In this document: in pieces, positions 31,151-51,148 of the stretch
Position numbering within the stretch: the first letter of the stretch is position 1
How the letters are laid out: every line of letters starts with the position of its first letter
Source of the DNA: Candidatus Yanofskyibacteriota bacterium
Lineage (GTDB): Bacteria > Patescibacteriota > Minisyncoccia > 2-02-FULL-40-12 > IGHO2-01-FULL-4-A
Reading direction: 5' to 3'
Assembly (NCBI GenBank): GCA_903897805.1
Contig: CAIUCV010000019.1
Span: 1-51,148 of the forward strand
Length of the DNA stretch: 51,148 nt
Notes under the pieces: generated by a model
The model's database searches: none
Seen by the model: the letters and a program-made list of their open reading frames with translations, nothing else
Told to the model about the DNA's origin: nothing
Made by a program: the position numbers and the translations under genes

Positions 31151-33460
31151 ATGCAAAAAACAGTTGACTCCCATTGGATAGCCAAATTTTTGCGCTACGC
31201 CATATATATCGCAGCTTTTGTGCCGCTAATTATTTTTTCGCAGTTTATCTCGCCATTTCATTTCGGGAAAGTGGTGGTTTTCCGGTCGCTAGTTGAAATA
31301 ATGGCGGCTTTTTATTTTATCTTGATTTTGAGAGACAAGAGCTATTTGCCGCCGTGGCATATACTCCTTTACCTATTTGCCGGCTGGACTTTGTTTTTTG
31401 GTATTACAACAGTAACCAGTGTTAATCCTTATTTGAGTTTCTGGGGCTCATTAGAAAGGATGGGCGGGCTATGGACGTTCCTGCACTATTTGGTTTATTT
31501 CGTAATCCTAATCTCTGTGTTCAGGACAAAAGAAGACTGGTTTAGGTTGCTAAAAGTCGTGGTTTTTGTGGGCGTACTCTCGGCCCTTTATGGTTTCGGG
31601 CAGAAAACCAATATCAGTTTTTTTATCGGGTCGGGAGGAAGAGAAAGAATTTTCGGCACCATAGGCAATGCCGCTCTGTTTGCCGGTTATCAAATCGTAA
31701 ATCTGTTTTTGGCTCTAATTTTAGCTTTTTCGTCCCAAGTTTCGCAAAGGCAAAAACCTTATTTTTTCATAGCGGCCATTATAAATACTGTTGCCGTGTT
31801 AATGACGGTAGTAAGAGGTTCCATTCTCGGCACAGGGGTGGGATTTTTGGTATTTGTTTGCCTCTATTTCTTTTCTTCAAAATCTAAAACCGCAAAACGG
31901 TTATTAATTGCCCTTCTTGTTCTTGCAGTCCTCTTTGTTGTTTTTTCTTTTGCTTTTAAGAACTCCAAATTTGTTCAGAACTCCAGTTACTTGCAACGCA
32001 TAACGGACTTTTCTTTAAGTACCTATACTGTTCAGACGCGTCTCTGGGCATGGCAAGCGGGTCTTGAGGGGTGGAAAGAATCAGCCAAAACTATTTTGCT
32101 CGGTTGGGGGCCGGAGAATTTTAACGTTCCATTTTCAAAACATTTCAACCCGAAATTTTTCAGGGGGCCCGGCTCTGAAACTCTTTTTGACCGTGCCCAC
32201 AATATGTTTGTGGAAATTTTGGTCACCATGGGGCTTTTAACATTTCTGATTTATGTTGCGATGTTTGTTGCCACATACCGCTTGTTATGGAAATTTACTT
32301 TTAAAGAACACAGAATTGATAGAATGGTTGGCATCGGTTTGATTTCTTTGATAACCGCCTATATTATTCATAACTGTTTTATTTTTGATACCTCAGCCAA
32401 CTTTTTGGTTTTCTTTACGGTGCTGGGCTTTATCACCTTCTTAACCGCAAAACCCGTGACGGCTGCCATGCCCCAGGCCTTAAATCCCAAATCCCAAATC
32501 CCAAATCCCAACCAAGCCCCAAACCCCAAACTCCAAATTTCAAATCCCAGATTAAACATTGGCCTTAGAACTCTAATGCCCATTCTCCTAATTGGGACTG
32601 CAATTTTAATTTATAAAACCAATATTTTGCCCGCGAAAGCAAACTACGCGACTACTCGCGCGATTGTGAAGGGCTGGGCCAATGATTTTGACGGTGCCGT
32701 AGCTAAATACAAGGAGGCATTAGCGTATGATGTCCCGGGCAAATACGATTACCGACATCGCTATGCCCAATGGATTTTAGAATATACAAACGGGAAACAA
32801 CTAGGCGATAAGGAAATATCCGCGATACAATTTGCGATCTCCGAAGTTCAGAAAAATGTCTCCGAGTCCAAACAAGATTATCTACCCTACCTTTATCTTT
32901 CCCGTCTTTACATATTTTTGGGCAAGAACGACCCCAAATCGCCATATAACGATATGGCCCTTCAGAATTCAATGAAAGCACTGGAGATTTCTCCAACTTT
33001 TGTCAGAACCTATTATGAGATCGCCCAGGCGTATTTAGACAAGAAGGATTATAACAATGCCATAAAATATTTTGGCGAGGCCGCCGAACTTAATCCGGAG
33101 GTGGGCATGTCGTATTGGTATCTGGGCGCTACTTATCTGGAAGTGGGGGAGACCCAAAAGGGGCTAGTGGCCATAGACGAAGCAATGAAAGTCGGTTACG
33201 CGTTGTCTGAGTCAGACTATCTACGTTTAATCAATATTTATTTGAAACTGGGCAATTTTGCTAAAATCAGCGAACTTTACGAGTCGTTGATTAAGATCAA
33301 CCCCAATAGTCCCCAATACCACGCCTCTTCAGCGGTTGCTTACGCAAAAATTGGCAAAATAGACCAAGCCGTTGAGCAGGCTAGAATTGCCGCCCAGCTG
33401 GATAAAAGTTTTGAGGCGGAGGCGAGGGCATTTATTGAGAGTTTGGGCAGAAAGTTTTAA
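31151..33460 (+). CDS. O-antigen ligase / Wzy-type membrane protein with C-terminal TPR domain
   Basis: A 769-residue protein. The first 430 residues form about eleven membrane helices with a large loop (GWGPENFNVPFSKH, then DRAHNMFVEILVTMG), the signature of the O-antigen ligase/Wzy_C family that joins or polymerises glycan outside the membrane. After a low-complexity linker (about residues 437-466) a single helix leads to a C-terminal region of TPR-like repeats (RTYYEIAQAYLDKKDYNNAI, MSYWYLGATYLEVGETQKG). The linker is a DNA repeat (32482-32549) rather than a conserved domain. The TPR part may organise the assembly complex. Confidence 0.88.
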   Translation: MQKTVDSHWIAKFLRYAIYIAAFVPLIIFSQFISPFHFGKVVVFRSLVEIMAAFYFILILRDKSYLPPWHILLYLFAGWTLFFGITTVTSVNPYLSFWGSLERMGGLWTFLHYLVYFVILISVFRTKEDWFRLLKVVVFVGVLSALYGFGQKTNISFFIGSGGRERIFGTIGNAALFAGYQIVNLFLALILAFSSQVSQRQKPYFFIAAIINTVAVLMTVVRGSILGTGVGFLVFVCLYFFSSKSKTAKRLLIALLVLAVLFVVFSFAFKNSKFVQNSSYLQRITDFSLSTYTVQTRLWAWQAGLEGWKESAKTILLGWGPENFNVPFSKHFNPKFFRGPGSETLFDRAHNMFVEILVTMGLLTFLIYVAMFVATYRLLWKFTFKEHRIDRMVGIGLISLITAYIIHNCFIFDTSANFLVFFTVLGFITFLTAKPVTAAMPQALNPKSQIPNPNQAPNPKLQISNPRLNIGLRTLMPILLIGTAILIYKTNILPAKANYATTRAIVKGWANDFDGAVAKYKEALAYDVPGKYDYRHRYAQWILEYTNGKQLGDKEISAIQFAISEVQKNVSESKQDYLPYLYLSRLYIFLGKNDPKSPYNDMALQNSMKALEISPTFVRTYYEIAQAYLDKKDYNNAIKYFGEAAELNPEVGMSYWYLGATYLEVGETQKGLVAIDEAMKVGYALSESDYLRLINIYLKLGNFAKISELYESLIKINPNSPQYHASSAVAYAKIGKIDQAVEQARIAAQLDKSFEAEARAFIESLGRKF
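32482..32549. repeat. AAATCCC-type repeat inside the ligase gene
   Basis: Consecutive AAATCCC units and variants (AAACCCC, AAACTCC, AAATTTC) fall between the membrane part and the TPR part and are translated as a N-P-rich patch. The repeat belongs to the same kind as the intergenic AAATCCTAA copies. Confidence 0.85.
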
Positions 33461-37358: not shown

Positions 37359-38361
37359 TACAAAAGACAAAAAGATAAGAGTAGGCGTTATCGGTATCGG
37401 AATGGTCGGCGAACCGATAAAACGCTGGTTTGAAAAGTGCCTTGGGTATAGACGAAATAAAGAATTGTTTTGTTGCGATACCAACCCCAAGAAGGGCTTC
37501 AACGACGATATAAATAAAGCCGACATCATTTTTGTAGCCGTGCCCACGCCGGCGAACCCCAACGGCAGCTGCGATCTTTCGGCAGTAGAGAGCGCGGTGG
37601 ACAAAGTTAGCGACGGGAAAATTATAGTTGTAAAATCAACGGTACCGCCGGGAACAGTTGAGGGTTTGCAGAGAAAATATCCCAAGAAAAGATTCGTCTT
37701 CAACCCAGAATTTTTGACTGAGTCCCAGGCGTGGCTGGATTTTATCAAGCCAGACCGCCAGCTCGTTGCTCATACTCGCAAAAGTTACGGAGATACAAGA
37801 GAGATACTCGCATTGCTTCCCCGGGCTTGTTTTGAAAGACCCTGGTCAAGCGACTATACGAAGAAGGAAATCAATGCGACGGAAGCTGAAGTGGCGAAAT
37901 ACGCTGCCAATGTTTTCGGCTATATCAAGGTTATTTACGGCAATATTTTAGCTGACCTTTGTCATGCCGTAACATTAAGTTTGAGTAGACGTAAGATTAA
38001 TGCCCCGGTTGATTACGAGAATGTAAGAGAAGTTATCTCTGCCGATCCTCGCATCGGCCCCGCTTGGTTAAATGTAGAACGCGGTAATTACTGCGGAGCC
38101 GGCGGTTATTGCTTCCCCAAGGATATGAACGCTTTCATAAAGTTTGCCGAGAATTTAGCGGGAGAACTGTCCGGCGGAAAGAAAACAAACAATGCGGGTC
38201 TCATTAAGTCGTTGAAAAAAGGGATTGAGGTTTTGAAAGCCGTGGTGGCTTACAATGAAACTCTTCTTGGCTGGCAGGGATTGACAATTGAGGATGTTTC
38301 GCGGCATGATAAAGAGGTGGTTGTTAATAAGCGTAAGCTGATACGTAAAGCGAAATCCTAA
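37351..38361 (+). CDS. UDP-glucose/GDP-mannose dehydrogenase family protein, shortened
   Basis: A 336-residue oxidoreductase, shorter than the usual 400-450 residues. The N-terminal NAD-binding GIGMVG and the central catalytic cysteine (C254 in GAGGYCFPKDM) are present. The third, UDP-binding domain of the family seems missing; the protein ends about 80 residues after the cysteine. Its normal job is to oxidise a UDP-hexose to a uronate. It ends exactly in an AAATCCTAA repeat copy, which supplies the stop codon. Either a short natural form or a truncation by the repeat. Confidence 0.85.
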   Translation: MSNTKDKKIRVGVIGIGMVGEPIKRWFEKCLGYRRNKELFCCDTNPKKGFNDDINKADIIFVAVPTPANPNGSCDLSAVESAVDKVSDGKIIVVKSTVPPGTVEGLQRKYPKKRFVFNPEFLTESQAWLDFIKPDRQLVAHTRKSYGDTREILALLPRACFERPWSSDYTKKEINATEAEVAKYAANVFGYIKVIYGNILADLCHAVTLSLSRRKINAPVDYENVREVISADPRIGPAWLNVERGNYCGAGGYCFPKDMNAFIKFAENLAGELSGGKKTNNAGLIKSLKKGIEVLKAVVAYNETLLGWQGLTIEDVSRHDKEVVVNKRKLIRKAKS

Positions 38362-38383
38362 GCACGAAATCCTAAATCCTAAA
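38353..38383. repeat. AAATCCTAA repeat at a stop codon
   Basis: Three AAATCCTAA units (one imperfectly spaced by GCACG) run from the last codons of the dehydrogenase into the gap. The first unit contains the TAA stop (38359-38361). Confidence 0.8.
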
Positions 38384-38402: not shown

Positions 38403-39431
38403 ATGAGTGCTAAAACCGATACAAAAAAAGTCCTTGTAACCGGTGGTGCTGGGTTCATCGGCTCCCACCTTGTGGACGCCCTTGTGGAAGAGGGCCATTC
38501 CGTCGTTGTTATTGATAATCTTTCAACGGGCAAGAAGTCACAGGTAAACAAAAAGGCGAAATTTATCAAGGCCGATATCCGCAATCTCAAGAAGATCAAA
38601 CCGTGTTTTAAGGGGGTAAATTTAGTTTTCCATTTGGCGGCCCGAACCAGCATTCAGCCATCAATCAAAGATCCAGTATCCACGTTTGACCACAATATCA
38701 CAGGTACTCTGAATGTTTTGCTTGCGTCGCGCGATGCCGGCGTTAAAAGAGTGGTTTATTCAGCATCGTCTTCTTCTTATGGCGACCAGGACACCTTGCC
38801 GCTTCATGAAGAAATGACCCCTCGCTTTAAAAGCCCGTACTCTTTATCAAAGTATGTTGGCGAGGAGCTGTGCAGGTTGTTCAGTAACTTATACGGCCTT
38901 GAATCCGTTTCGTTGCGATACTTTAATGTTTACGGCCCGAGACAAATTGCAACCGGGGCTTATGCCGCAGTAGTGGGAGTCTTCCTTAAACAGTTTAAAG
39001 ATGGCAAACCGCTGACCATTGTCGGCGACGGGAGTGTCCAGCGCGATTTTACGCATGTGTTTGATGTGGTGAGGGCAAATATTTTAGCTGTTCAATCCAT
39101 TAAGGTGGGCAAGGGGGAAGTAATTAACATCGGAACCGGCAAAAATTATTCAATCAACGAAGTGGCTTCAATGATCCTGACCCCGCCGGAGCGAGGATAT
39201 ATGCTACCAGCGAGGGATTTTAATAATCCTCGTTTGACCGGAGGAGTTGTCCCCAATGTTAAACCGGAAACGGTGCTAGCTTCGGCCGTGAGAGAAAACA
39301 GAATTTCTTATATACCTTCTCGTCCCGGTGAAACCCGCTGTTCCCTCGCCAATACCAGTAAGGCCCGCCAGCTTCTCGGCTGGAAGCCGACGATTTCTTT
39401 GGAAGAGGGGCTAGCGGCGCTGTTGAAATAA
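38403..39431 (+). CDS. NAD-dependent sugar epimerase/dehydratase (GalE-like) with in-frame insertion
   Basis: A 342-residue short-chain dehydrogenase-type enzyme, probably a UDP-sugar 4-epimerase. GGAGFIGSHLVDAL binds NAD, SASSSSYGDQ is the catalytic serine region and SPYSLSKYVGEE has the YxxxK pair. RYFNVYGPRQ and the late SRPGETRCSLAN fit the family. About residues 257-298 (from LTPPERGYMLPA to SAVRENR) do not fit: related enzymes pass directly from the SINEVA helix to the IPSRPGE strand. The inserted DNA contains a palindrome (39211-39232). Whether the enzyme still works is not known. The specific sugar is not assigned. Confidence 0.85.
   Translation: MSAKTDTKKVLVTGGAGFIGSHLVDALVEEGHSVVVIDNLSTGKKSQVNKKAKFIKADIRNLKKIKPCFKGVNLVFHLAARTSIQPSIKDPVSTFDHNITGTLNVLLASRDAGVKRVVYSASSSSYGDQDTLPLHEEMTPRFKSPYSLSKYVGEELCRLFSNLYGLESVSLRYFNVYGPRQIATGAYAAVVGVFLKQFKDGKPLTIVGDGSVQRDFTHVFDVVRANILAVQSIKVGKGEVINIGTGKNYSINEVASMILTPPERGYMLPARDFNNPRLTGGVVPNVKPETVLASAVRENRISYIPSRPGETRCSLANTSKARQLLGWKPTISLEEGLAALLK
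39211..39232. repeat. Palindrome within the epimerase insertion
   Basis: CGAGGGATT (39211-39219) faces AATCCTCG (39225-39232) with a 5-nt loop and one extra G in the left arm. It lies in the middle of the in-frame insertion. Confidence 0.65.
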
Positions 39432-39433
39432 CC

Positions 39434-39645
39434 GTGACCCCTCCCCAATTTCCCCTCCGATGTTCTCGCAGACAAATAATATTTCGATTTTCTCATTTCC
39501 CTAGATAAAAAATCGTACCCCTTCCGCTCCGCCCCGCCTCTGGCGGGGCTTCGCTACGTCCCAATTTATTTATCACGGGAAATATCAAAAATCTCAATTT
39601 ATTTGTTCCTGCTCGCCCATATAGGGGAAATTAGGGGAGGGTCAC
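39434..39645. repeat. 212-bp fold-back (long inverted repeat) element
   Basis: The outermost 23 bp at each end (39434-39456 and 39623-39645) are inverted repeats matching at 20 of 23 positions. The element continues inward as an imperfect palindrome, with paired patches such as ATTTCCC (39495-39501) and GGGAAAT (39577-39583), and closes on a perfect GCCCCGCC-TCT-GGCGGGGC hairpin (39531-39549). The outer arms and the inner hairpin share almost the same centre (39540), so the whole segment folds as one hairpin. No protein is encoded. It begins just after the epimerase stop and ends at the promoter of the next gene. This resembles a MITE or fold-back element with no transposase of its own. Confidence 0.85.
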
Positions 39646-39674
39646 TTAAAACCATGCCTTGCATCGTGTATAAT
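39646..39674 (+). promoter_or_regulatory. Promoter of the M30-like protease, near-leaderless
   Basis: TTAAAA (39646-39651), 17 nt, and TATAAT (39669-39674) end 7 nt before the ATG at 39682. The -35 box starts directly at the edge of the fold-back element. Confidence 0.6.
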
Positions 39675-39681
39675 TAGAGCT

Positions 39682-41445
39682 ATGAAATATCTTCGGTATC
39701 TTTTTTTTGCGACTATTTTTTTATTACTTGCGGCGTCAGTTAGTGCCGATACACTGGGGCAAAACCAGCAATTTTTTATCAGTCCGCAATATGATGCTCA
39801 ATCGCGAACTTTGGTTTCGGCCACGTTGATAGCTACTTCCGACCACGCCTATTTTTATGTTGAGGACGGCTATTGGAACAGTATCAGCCCTAATATGCGC
39901 AGCCAAGTTCTCAATAGGATTACTTCGCTCGGGCGGGAGTTTGATAGCCGTATATACCCGATAGAAACGCAGTTTTTTGGGTCGGAACCGAACCCGGGAG
40001 TTGACAACGACTCGCGGATAACAATTTTGCTTTCACCGCTTATTGAGAATGCCGGCGGCTATTTTGATACTGCGAACGAATATAATAAAGAACAGGCGCC
40101 CGGCACAAACAGCCGCGAAATGATCTATCTTAATGTAATGGCTCTAAATGACCAAAAGAGAATGGACGGTTTTTTAGGTCACGAGTTTCAGCACCTAATC
40201 TCTTTTAATCAAAGAGAAAAATTGCGCAATGTTATGGATGACACTTGGCTTAACGAACTGCGGTCGCAATATGCCGTAACACTGCTTGGTTACGATGACG
40301 ATTTTACCGGTTCTGATTTAGAGAAAAGACTGCAGGCATTTATCGGGAGCTCCTCGGATAGTTTAACAGAATGGAAAAATCTTCCCGCCGATTACGGACA
40401 GATTAGCTTGTTTGGAGAATACCTTGCCGAGCACTGGTCGCCTAAAGTGATTACCGACACCTTGAAAACCTCTTCGGTCGGGATAGTGAGCATAAATGAC
40501 ACTCTCAAACAAAACGGGTTTTCGGATTCTTTCCTTGATGTTTTCAGCCAATGGACGGCGGCAAATATTTTAAACGACACGTCCGTTAATCCAAAATTTG
40601 GTTATACTCGCGATGGTTTAAGAACTTTTCATATTGCCCCGACCAGAACTTTCAGCAATCTGGGCGATGATATTACCCTTGCCGCGTCCGATACAATCAA
40701 GGATTGGCAGGGTAGATGGTATGACGTTTCGCAATTCGCGAACGGCGGCAAGGGTGTTTTAAAGATAAACTTTTCATCGCCCTCGGTGGCCAGTTTTTAC
40801 GTTTCTTATCTGGTTTTGAAAAATGACGGGAGCCAAATCCTTTCCGTATTTAATCCTGCCATTGATTCCAGCGCTTTATACGTTAGCGGTATCGGCACGG
40901 ATGTAAAGGAAGTCGTTTTTATGCCGATTAAAAGGGATAAAATTTCTGGATTTACATCTGATGAGGTTGCTATACCACTTACTTTATCGGTTGAGAGAAT
41001 TGGGGCCATTCCTCAGGAAGCGACAGCTACGCCTACGCCCCTGCTCTCAACACCTTCCCCGACGATTAATACCGTAAATTTTCCGCTTGCAAATATTCCA
41101 GATGGCTCGCTGATCAGAGCTAACGGCGACTATAAAGTTTACGTAGTCAATGGCGGCTGGCGCAGACATATTATCAGCTCCAAGATTTTCAGTTTTTACC
41201 CGCAGTTTGGCTTTGATAAAGTTAAAATTATTTCATCTTCAGTTCTGGCCCAATATCGGGAGAGCGACCTTATACGCTATCAAGCCGGTACAAAAGTTTA
41301 TAGCATAGACGAATCCGGGGAAAAACACTGGCTTAATATATCCGCCGGGCAATTTTCCAATTCCGGTCGCGCCTGGGATTCAATATTTATAATAAACTCG
41401 CAAGAGTTGAATCTTTACGTAACAGGTGCTAACATCAGTGAGTAG
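39682..41445 (+). CDS. Secreted M30-like (hyicolysin-type) zinc metalloprotease
   Basis: A 587-residue protein with a clear N-terminal signal peptide (residues 1-22, ending SVSADT). The zinc site H167-E168-x2-H171 (GHEFQHLISF) and a following E192 (WLNELRSQYA) match M30-type peptidases; VDNDSRITILLSPL precedes them as in the family. A P-T-rich linker (about residues 448-470) leads to a C-terminal region with two similar units (DGSLIRANGDYKVYVV, DLIRYQAGTKVYSID) that may bind the cell surface. It probably acts outside the cell. It has its own promoter. Confidence 0.85.
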   Translation: MKYLRYLFFATIFLLLAASVSADTLGQNQQFFISPQYDAQSRTLVSATLIATSDHAYFYVEDGYWNSISPNMRSQVLNRITSLGREFDSRIYPIETQFFGSEPNPGVDNDSRITILLSPLIENAGGYFDTANEYNKEQAPGTNSREMIYLNVMALNDQKRMDGFLGHEFQHLISFNQREKLRNVMDDTWLNELRSQYAVTLLGYDDDFTGSDLEKRLQAFIGSSSDSLTEWKNLPADYGQISLFGEYLAEHWSPKVITDTLKTSSVGIVSINDTLKQNGFSDSFLDVFSQWTAANILNDTSVNPKFGYTRDGLRTFHIAPTRTFSNLGDDITLAASDTIKDWQGRWYDVSQFANGGKGVLKINFSSPSVASFYVSYLVLKNDGSQILSVFNPAIDSSALYVSGIGTDVKEVVFMPIKRDKISGFTSDEVAIPLTLSVERIGAIPQEATATPTPLLSTPSPTINTVNFPLANIPDGSLIRANGDYKVYVVNGGWRRHIISSKIFSFYPQFGFDKVKIISSSVLAQYRESDLIRYQAGTKVYSIDESGEKHWLNISAGQFSNSGRAWDSIFIINSQELNLYVTGANISE

Positions 41446-49478: not shown

Positions 49479-50921
49479 ATGGCTGACAAAAAATACAAAT
49501 TGACCGGTGAACATTTCTACAAGTTTTTCCAATGCCCGCATTGGATTTGGTACGACGTTTATGGTGACCAGACAAAAAAAGGCAAAATCCCGCCCCTCAT
49601 TGAGATGATCCATCAGAACGGGCTCAAGCACGAAAAAGAGATGATAAAGTCGCGGAAGTTTGAAGAAATTAAACCGGAGCTTTTCCGTGATTTGGACGAA
49701 GCGTTCTTGGCAACAATGGAACTGATGAAGCAGGGGAAGAACATATACCATGGCGTTTTGATGGAGGGCGATTGGGTCGGTATCCCGGACTTGCTTGAGG
49801 CGCGGGAAGGGAAGTCCAATCTGGGCGATCATTATTACGTTGTTTACGATGTCAAAAGCGGCAGAGATATACGCGACGAATACAAATTCCAGCTCGTTTT
49901 TTACAGTTTGATCTTGGAAAGATTACAGGGCGTTCTTCCTCGCGATGCCTATATAATAAATGCCGACGGCGAGGAGCGGTCCTTTATGGTTGATGATTTT
50001 GTGGAGCAGTTCCACCTGACACGGCAAAGGATTGAACAAATTTTGGAAGGCGAAAAACCGCCCCCGTTCCTTAAAAGCGGGTGCAAGCATTCGCCCTGGT
50101 ATTCACTTTGCGTTGAAGATACGAAGGGTTGTGACGACGTTTCGCTTATTTACCGCTTAAGTCAGAACGACCAACGGCGGCTTTATGAAATCGGCATTCA
50201 TACGGTAAAAGAATTGGCAGCGGCTGATTTGGACAATTTGCGTTCAAGATTAGAAGATTGGCCGTTTGATAAAGTTCTCCGCATTTACAATCAGGCCCAG
50301 GTTTTGGTTTCCGGCGAGCCGATGATTTTAAAAAAAGGCGAATTTCCGGCAGTTGAGAACGAGATTTATTTTGACATTGAATCCGACCCCACCGAAACAA
50401 TTGATTATCTTTTAGGAATACTGGTGCGGCATAGTAGCGGGAAGTCCGAATACAAATGTTTTTTGGCGAAAGATAAGAGCGAGGAAGGAAAAAATTGGCG
50501 CGAGTTTTTGGATTTTCTGGAATCGCTGAACGACTTTGTCATTTATCACTATTCTTATTACGAAAGAGAGGTCTTTGGCCGCCTGGGGCAGAAATACGGC
50601 ATCTCAAGAGCGCTTGAGGACAAGTTCAAAAATAACACCTTAGATTTGCACTTGGCGGTGGTGGAAGAAGTGATATTGCCTTTGTATTTTTATAGCTTGA
50701 AGGACGTTGCTCAATACCTCGGTTTTAAATGGAGCGCGGAGGATGCGGGGGGGGCGGAGTCGGTCGTCTGGTACAACGAATGGCTTAAAACCGGTGACCA
50801 GAAAATTATGGACAAAATCATCAAATACAACGAGGACGATGTCCGGGCGACGCTGTTCGTGAAAGAGTGGCTAGAGAAGCAGAAGCCGAGAATATCACGG
50901 GAGAAATTACCGGAGGAATAG
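49479..50921 (+). CDS. RecB-family nuclease of the TM0106 type (PD-(D/E)XK plus RNase H-like domain)
   Basis: A 480-residue protein. The N-terminal nuclease domain has D104, D124-x-K126 (VYDVKSG) and Q138-x3-Y142. Cysteines C19, C202, C211 and C218 (C-x8-C-x6-C) can bind an Fe-S cluster. A short helix-hairpin-helix-like region (about residues 228-260) follows. The C-terminal RNase_H_2-type domain has YFDIESD (D299, E301) and YNEDDVRATL, the residues of a DEDD exonuclease. It follows the smaller nuclease and may act with it on DNA. Confidence 0.85.
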   Translation: MADKKYKLTGEHFYKFFQCPHWIWYDVYGDQTKKGKIPPLIEMIHQNGLKHEKEMIKSRKFEEIKPELFRDLDEAFLATMELMKQGKNIYHGVLMEGDWVGIPDLLEAREGKSNLGDHYYVVYDVKSGRDIRDEYKFQLVFYSLILERLQGVLPRDAYIINADGEERSFMVDDFVEQFHLTRQRIEQILEGEKPPPFLKSGCKHSPWYSLCVEDTKGCDDVSLIYRLSQNDQRRLYEIGIHTVKELAAADLDNLRSRLEDWPFDKVLRIYNQAQVLVSGEPMILKKGEFPAVENEIYFDIESDPTETIDYLLGILVRHSSGKSEYKCFLAKDKSEEGKNWREFLDFLESLNDFVIYHYSYYEREVFGRLGQKYGISRALEDKFKNNTLDLHLAVVEEVILPLYFYSLKDVAQYLGFKWSAEDAGGAESVVWYNEWLKTGDQKIMDKIIKYNEDDVRATLFVKEWLEKQKPRISREKLPEE

Positions 50922-50923
50922 CC

Positions 50924-51148
50924 GCGACCCCCTCTCACGAAATTCGGTTCGGACTTTGGCAAAGAGGGGCTCCGGCCATAATGCCTTCTGGGGACTTCGA
51001 AAACCCCAGCGTGGTTTTCTCATCCGTTGCTCTTGCCACCATTTGTCAAGGCGCAAGGGCCTATGACAAAACCATGCTGGCGGCAAACGCAGCGGCCCCA
51101 GAAGGCACTATGACCTTCGCCCAATATCCCCAAAGTCCTTTCTGAAAA
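50924..51148. repeat. Second fold-back element, cut by the right edge
   Basis: The DNA from the nuclease stop to the window edge reads as the larger part of a long imperfect palindrome. GGACTTTGG (50951-50959) faces CCAAAGTCC (51130-51138), and CATAATGCCTTCTGGGG faces a near-identical inverted copy (CCCCAGAAGGCACTATG). Further patches such as TGGTTTT face AAAACCA. The centre is near 51045. The outer right end lies beyond the window by about 17 bp if the element is symmetric. No gene is supported here. It resembles the 39434-39645 element in layout: it starts just after a stop codon and opens with a C-rich GACCCC block. Confidence 0.75.

Follow-up and report, generated by a model that had tools for sequence, protein, structure and literature searches.

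Structure and setting of the window element

In the genome of a relative of Ca. Yanofskybacteria, a non-coding segment at positions 39434–39645 of a 51,148-nucleotide stretch of DNA (contig CAIUCV010000019.1, the window in what follows) is able to fold back on itself over its whole length. An earlier note, made from the letters of the window, proposed either a non-autonomous mobile element or a long RNA hairpin. The locus raises the question of which of the two it carries, and on which strand the structure is maintained.

The 212-nt segment forms one unbranched hairpin, with a folding energy of -84.5 kcal/mol (z -9.9) using RNA parameters and -50.5 kcal/mol (z -10.6) using DNA parameters, and an equally good fold was reached by 0 of 200 shuffles in both cases, in agreement with the single long hairpin described in the note. 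The description of its ends and centre was also accurate: the 23-bp ends match without gaps at 20 of 23 positions, or with 22 paired bases if one bulge is allowed on each side, and pairing continues inward to a perfect GC-rich apical stem, GCCCCGCC-TCT-GGCGGGGC (Table 1). As had been noted, the element starts 2 nt after a stop codon (TAA, 39429–39431). The promoter at which it was said to end is represented by a single consensus match downstream (TTAAAA-17-TATAAT, 39646–39674), which is weak support since 0.6 such matches are expected by chance. An Rfam search with the element returned no family, neither at the gathering threshold nor at E<=10, and in the literature on Parcubacteria repeats nothing relevant was found.

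Table 1. Coordinates of the window element, its neighbouring genes and the loci of further fold-back cores
Feature	Position	Strand	Remark
Whole fold-back element, window copy (L040)	39434..39645	+	Fold z -9.9 (RNA), -10.6 (DNA); covariance-model match, E 3.4e-36
Outer left arm, GTGACCCCTCCCCAATTTCCCCT	39434..39456	+	Begins 2 nt past stop codon
Outer right arm, reverse complement of left arm	39623..39645	+	
Conserved family core, covariance model R1 full length	39462..39615	+	
Apical perfect GC hairpin, varies among copies	39531..39549	+	Differs even between close copies L040 and L057
Upstream gene, NAD-dependent epimerase/dehydratase, stop codon abuts element	38403..39431	+	Pfam PF01370, E 7e-65
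Downstream gene, 587 aa, without Pfam match	39682..41445	+	
Further core families, source genome	L185:19765-19958, L188:6820-7015, L189:10650-10853, L193:10420-10571; L188:8176-8363, L195:19436-19693, L201:1724-1968		

Copies and distribution of family A

The search for further copies that the note had called for shows that the segment is one member of a dispersed, non-coding fold-back family, here called family A, which in our sample is limited to one order of Parcubacteria. BLAST against the source genome (621,693 bases in 23 contigs) finds seven copies at distinct loci, one of which runs off a contig end. Of the 45 genomes of the order, 15 have matches to a covariance model of the core, and 48 copies were fetched and examined. 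Among 286 genomes sampled evenly across the class, matches are confined to members of the same order. Named records that contain both the core pattern and the fold belong to Ca. Yanofskybacteria. G001 and G005, of the same family, have no core covariance-model match, and G005 shares its genus with the copy-bearing G002. A phage collection and IMG/VR were searched and contain no copy of the element; matches in IMG/VR, Larkinella and Desulfobulbaceae are chance 19-mers without the fold. An assembly chimera was considered unlikely and rejected, as independent assemblies contain the same cores with compensatory differences.

In most source-genome copies, homology is confined to the middle of the element (element positions about 24–186), and the flanks differ from copy to copy while being self-complementary within each. 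The outer left arm of the window element has close likeness only to those of its paralogues L057 and L003. Contrary to what the earlier note had implied, the 23-bp ends are not fixed transposon ends: the outer stem changes from one copy to the next.

Placement at gene ends and copying to new loci

Family A copies are situated directly 3' of stop codons, with a bias towards the sense orientation (33/47), and they also occur within operons, at rplN–rplX and rpsS–rplV (ribosomal), atpA–atpG and mreC–mreD. Several of these sites are empty in related genomes. The rplN–rplX junction is occupied in G002 and empty in G007, where a 2-nt spacer (TTTAAttATG) contains no palindrome, and the L14 proteins of the two genomes are 96% identical. 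At rpsS–rplV the element is present in G006 and absent in G000 and G001. The mreC–mreD junction of G007 has the appearance of an internal deletion with the left arm retained. In G002, the rpsS–rplV spacer (L241) consists of tandem CTGTAAC-type units at a position where a relative carries a fold-back.

The window copy is 88.4% identical to L057, located behind the L25 gene rplY in the same genome, with the differences mostly in the apical hairpin. With its own orthologue, L062 at the L25 gene of G002, L057 shares only 67% identity. Because L057 is closer to the window copy than to its own orthologue, the element has been copied to new places. Copies at different loci in different genomes can also be similar, as for L058 (rplN–rplX, G002) and L056 (rpsS–rplV, G006), which are 79% identical. 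New loci thus carry copies that sister species lack, and neither outcome that would have spoken against mobility in the earlier note, a lack of further copies or a lack of homologous sites without the segment, is what we find. The mobile-element part of its proposal stands with respect to dispersed copies, empty sites and paralogue similarity, and fails with respect to constant ends; of the short target duplications that it predicted, no consistent one was seen by eye in occupied/empty comparisons or at arm ends. Counting against a mobile reading, sites at rpoC, ileS, rplY, lepA and dnaB recur across genera and families, which could reflect vertical inheritance and function instead of movement.

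A locus-specific outer stem around a covarying core

When each left flank was scored against all 47 right flanks, its own right flank was the best complement in 41 of 47 copies, with a mean score of 35 compared with 13–16 for cross pairs. The outer stem is thus specific to its locus and yet self-complementary. In 17 of 29 measurable copies it extends into the stop codon or the last codons of the gene, so that gene sequence makes up one arm and an inverted copy of it the other. At the ligA end in G022, for example, a stem of 34 bp without mismatch (GTAGAAGCCAACTGCCCATGCCAATGTTTTTAAA) reaches into the gene end. The feet of the stem contain TCGCT in 9 of 29 long copies, and in none of the shifted control.

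In the core, both partners of a pair have changed in 44 cells, where shuffles give 13.7, and one-sided wobble intermediates are limited to 8 cells; as copies per genome are few, the genomes are drafts and related copies are not independent, these counts and the mismatch counts below should be read with caution. Quasipalindromes are known in which template switching renders the arms complementary block by block, with few one-sided intermediates (PMC8794818, PMC3820800). The ratio of both-sided to one-sided cells in the family A core resembles that pattern, and template-switch repair of hairpins would be expected to produce such double-sided change in blocks. Unlike the published cases, which concern a mutational process on existing hairpins, the process would here act on a dispersed, copied element.

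Strand asymmetry of the fold

In the outer arms of family A, read on the gene-sense strand, A·C mismatches outnumber G·U (44 versus 9, or 25 versus 2 by locus). The individual mismatch cells are A·C 22, C·A 22, T·G 8 and G·T 1, beside pair totals of TA 384, CG 251, AT 218 and GC 126. A terminator control from the same data gives the opposite pattern (GU 22, AC 8). With RNA parameters, 46 of 47 copies fold better on the strand opposite to the gene, and with DNA parameters all 47 do; control segments have no strand asymmetry in folding. Other long fold-backs behind stop codons deviate in the same direction, more weakly (A·C 53, G·U 28; 41/68 folds). Pairing in the outer arms of family A is therefore wobble-tolerant on the strand complementary to the upstream gene. 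If a hairpin in the sense mRNA were under selection, G·U should exceed A·C, which is the reverse of what is observed. Neutral mutation in one arm alone was considered as a source of the A·C excess and rejected, since change in just the left or just the right arm does not account for the four mismatch cells. In our reading, the bottom strand is the one on which the structure is maintained, be it DNA or antisense RNA, and because many copies lie within tandem operons we prefer DNA. Within the outer arms, the asymmetry requires selection or a local mutational bias, and it is not accounted for by an element that is purely selfish. A strand-biased mutation process may be its cause.

Comparison with known systems and search for a mobiliser

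REP/BIME elements, tagged with GTAG or CGTC, are palindromic, dispersed and mostly 3' of coding regions, and some families are believed to be moved by Y1 transposases (PMC3733652). Family A is likewise palindromic, dispersed and located behind genes, and in several copies a bottom-strand GTAG precedes the apical hairpin. Unlike the 20–40 bp REP/BIME units, family A elements measure about 110–230 nt (108–226 nt for the core alone), occur in low copy number with copy-specific outer stems, and have no GTAG or CGTC tag at their feet, GTAG being present only at some apical hairpins. MITEs such as Correia, ERIC and RUP have terminal inverted repeats in common within a family and usually produce target duplications (PMC10969869). 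The similarity to family A lies in small size, lack of coding capacity, dispersed intergenic location, strong folding and multiple copies of one sequence, and the difference in terminal arms that are specific to the copy and in the lack of a visible duplication.

The search for a mobiliser covered Y1 genes and the integron integrase, and no transposase or recombinase of these two kinds is linked to family A. Y1 transposases act on a single DNA strand. Their presence does not track the copies: the copy-bearing genomes G004, G022 and G038, two of them incomplete, have no Y1 match. As an additional difference from REP/BIME, most of the Y1 genes inspected bear other, unrelated flanking palindromes; mobilisation by RAYT/Y1 was rejected on these grounds. 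The RAYT-like Y1 genes of the order at L222, L223, L224 and L225 are flanked by short perfect palindromes that are different for each gene. The integron integrase (TIGR02249) is above cut-off in 0 of 45 genomes.

Proposed mechanism and alternative explanations

Based on these observations, we regard family A as dispersed fold-backs of the bottom strand that are probably mobile and whose outer stems are specific to their loci. The fuller account, a dispersed, non-autonomous family of nested shells that moves as a single-stranded bottom-strand DNA hairpin, we consider to have an even chance of being correct. Each copy consists of three such shells: a locus-private outer stem of about 15–35 bp, placed at a stop codon or no more than about 10 nt from it, a conserved core whose pairs covary, and an apical hairpin that can be exchanged. 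The element would act and move as a single-stranded DNA hairpin of the strand opposite to the gene, recognised by a putative enzyme, and at each site hairpin-templated (template-switch) synthesis would rebuild the outer stem, with the fixed end of the gene as the template for the free arm.

The RNA alternative of the earlier note, a 3'-UTR hairpin of the upstream mRNA (intrinsic terminator or stabiliser) that is inherited vertically and whose stem is kept by compensatory changes, would account for the position and sense bias behind stop codons, for the core covariation, and for the recurrence at rpoC, ileS, lepA and rplY ends across genera. It is nevertheless disfavoured for the sense transcript and in our view unlikely, since the excess of A·C over G·U is opposite to that of the terminator control, copies occupy four operon junctions, essential operons among them, with empty sites in sister species, and the foot lacks a U-tract (at least 5 T in 8 nt for 5/43 copies, background 8.5%). 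The element does not appear to serve as a terminator for the upstream mRNA. An RNA of the bottom strand, through which the element would halt antisense transcription ahead of the gene or give rise to a small antisense RNA, agrees with the greater, wobble-tolerant stability of that strand (46/47 copies) and with the tight spacing to the stop codon. A U-tract is not enriched there either (2.2 A per 8 nt on the top strand, background 2.6), and such a function would not need new copies at new loci, so that we give it little credence.

Insertion into the loops of pre-existing hairpins, for example terminators, with an outer stem of host DNA, would explain why outer stems are unrelated between loci, and why one outer shell can enclose different cores, as behind ileS in G024 and G038 and in L057 and L195 of the source genome. 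We find it quite unlikely, because the one clean close empty site (rplN–rplX in G007) offers no hairpin to insert into, and long gene-end stems are rare, most of those in the source genome being fold-backs or simple repeats. A further alternative is an integron attC-like site, whose bottom strand a tyrosine recombinase would use in folded form, with the structure kept and the sequence free. In gene cassettes, attC is an imperfect palindrome behind the stop codon with variable sequence and apex, recombined as the folded bottom strand (PMC2727003), and in family A the position, the kept fold with variable sequence, the variable apex and the bottom-strand structure all conform to this description. 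Unlike attC, family A has a long conserved core sequence, adjoins housekeeping genes instead of cassette arrays, is accompanied by no integrase above cut-off, and has no R boxes, consistent AAC...GTT boxes at the arm ends being absent by eye. We thus regard an attC-like site as very unlikely.

A mobile bottom-strand fold-back would be of interest beyond this locus, as Parcubacteria have very small genomes and yet carry long fold-back DNA within essential operons. If the copy-specific stem and the bottom-strand fold hold, family A is a mobile hairpin without fixed end sequences, which transposon searches that rely on the ends would overlook. The family would then also offer a natural example of palindromes whose complementarity is maintained at the DNA level, and the proposed role of template switching in hairpin evolution could be tested by strain comparison.

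A wider class of fold-backs at gene ends

Gene ends in the source genome also carry other, unrelated fold-back cores in the same position. A genome-wide Lfold survey was too permissive, and a strict arm test was used instead. In 380 kb, this test detects arms at 28 of 739 gene ends, part of which are simple repeats or short terminators; shuffles give 0.2, and at positions within genes the count is 7 of 735. At the ends of rpoC, ileS, mreC, rplN and rpsS, the core that is present differs among genera, as though shared gene junctions were landing hot spots. At the ileS end, the base of the stem is common to G024 and G038 and the interior is different. We tentatively suggest, as a possibility that we rate below the mechanism proposed for family A, a new class of strand-specific single-stranded DNA hairpins in Patescibacteria that would land on gene ends, with the outer stem rebuilt from the local last codons at every new site and with architecture and landing sites common to several unrelated cores.

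The junction loci are L124, L133 and L136 (ileS), L154–L165 (rpoC), L094–L097 and L110 (rplN), and L226–L230 (mreC). At least two more core families of the source genome, GCACCGT...GGTGGATT and GCCGACTAGCAAATTGACGAG, adjoin gene ends and have variable outer arms; the outer shell of L195 resembles that of the window element. Within the window, a second, unrelated fold-back (50943–51147, -100 kcal/mol) lies at the contig end, just past a TAG at 50919–50921, and similar cores are found at rplN–rplX in G005 and G006, as well as at L202 and L194 in the source genome. The window also contains AT-rich dispersed repeats of the type AAATCCTAAATCC, which are intergenic at 1299–1328, 32482–32511 and 38353–38382.
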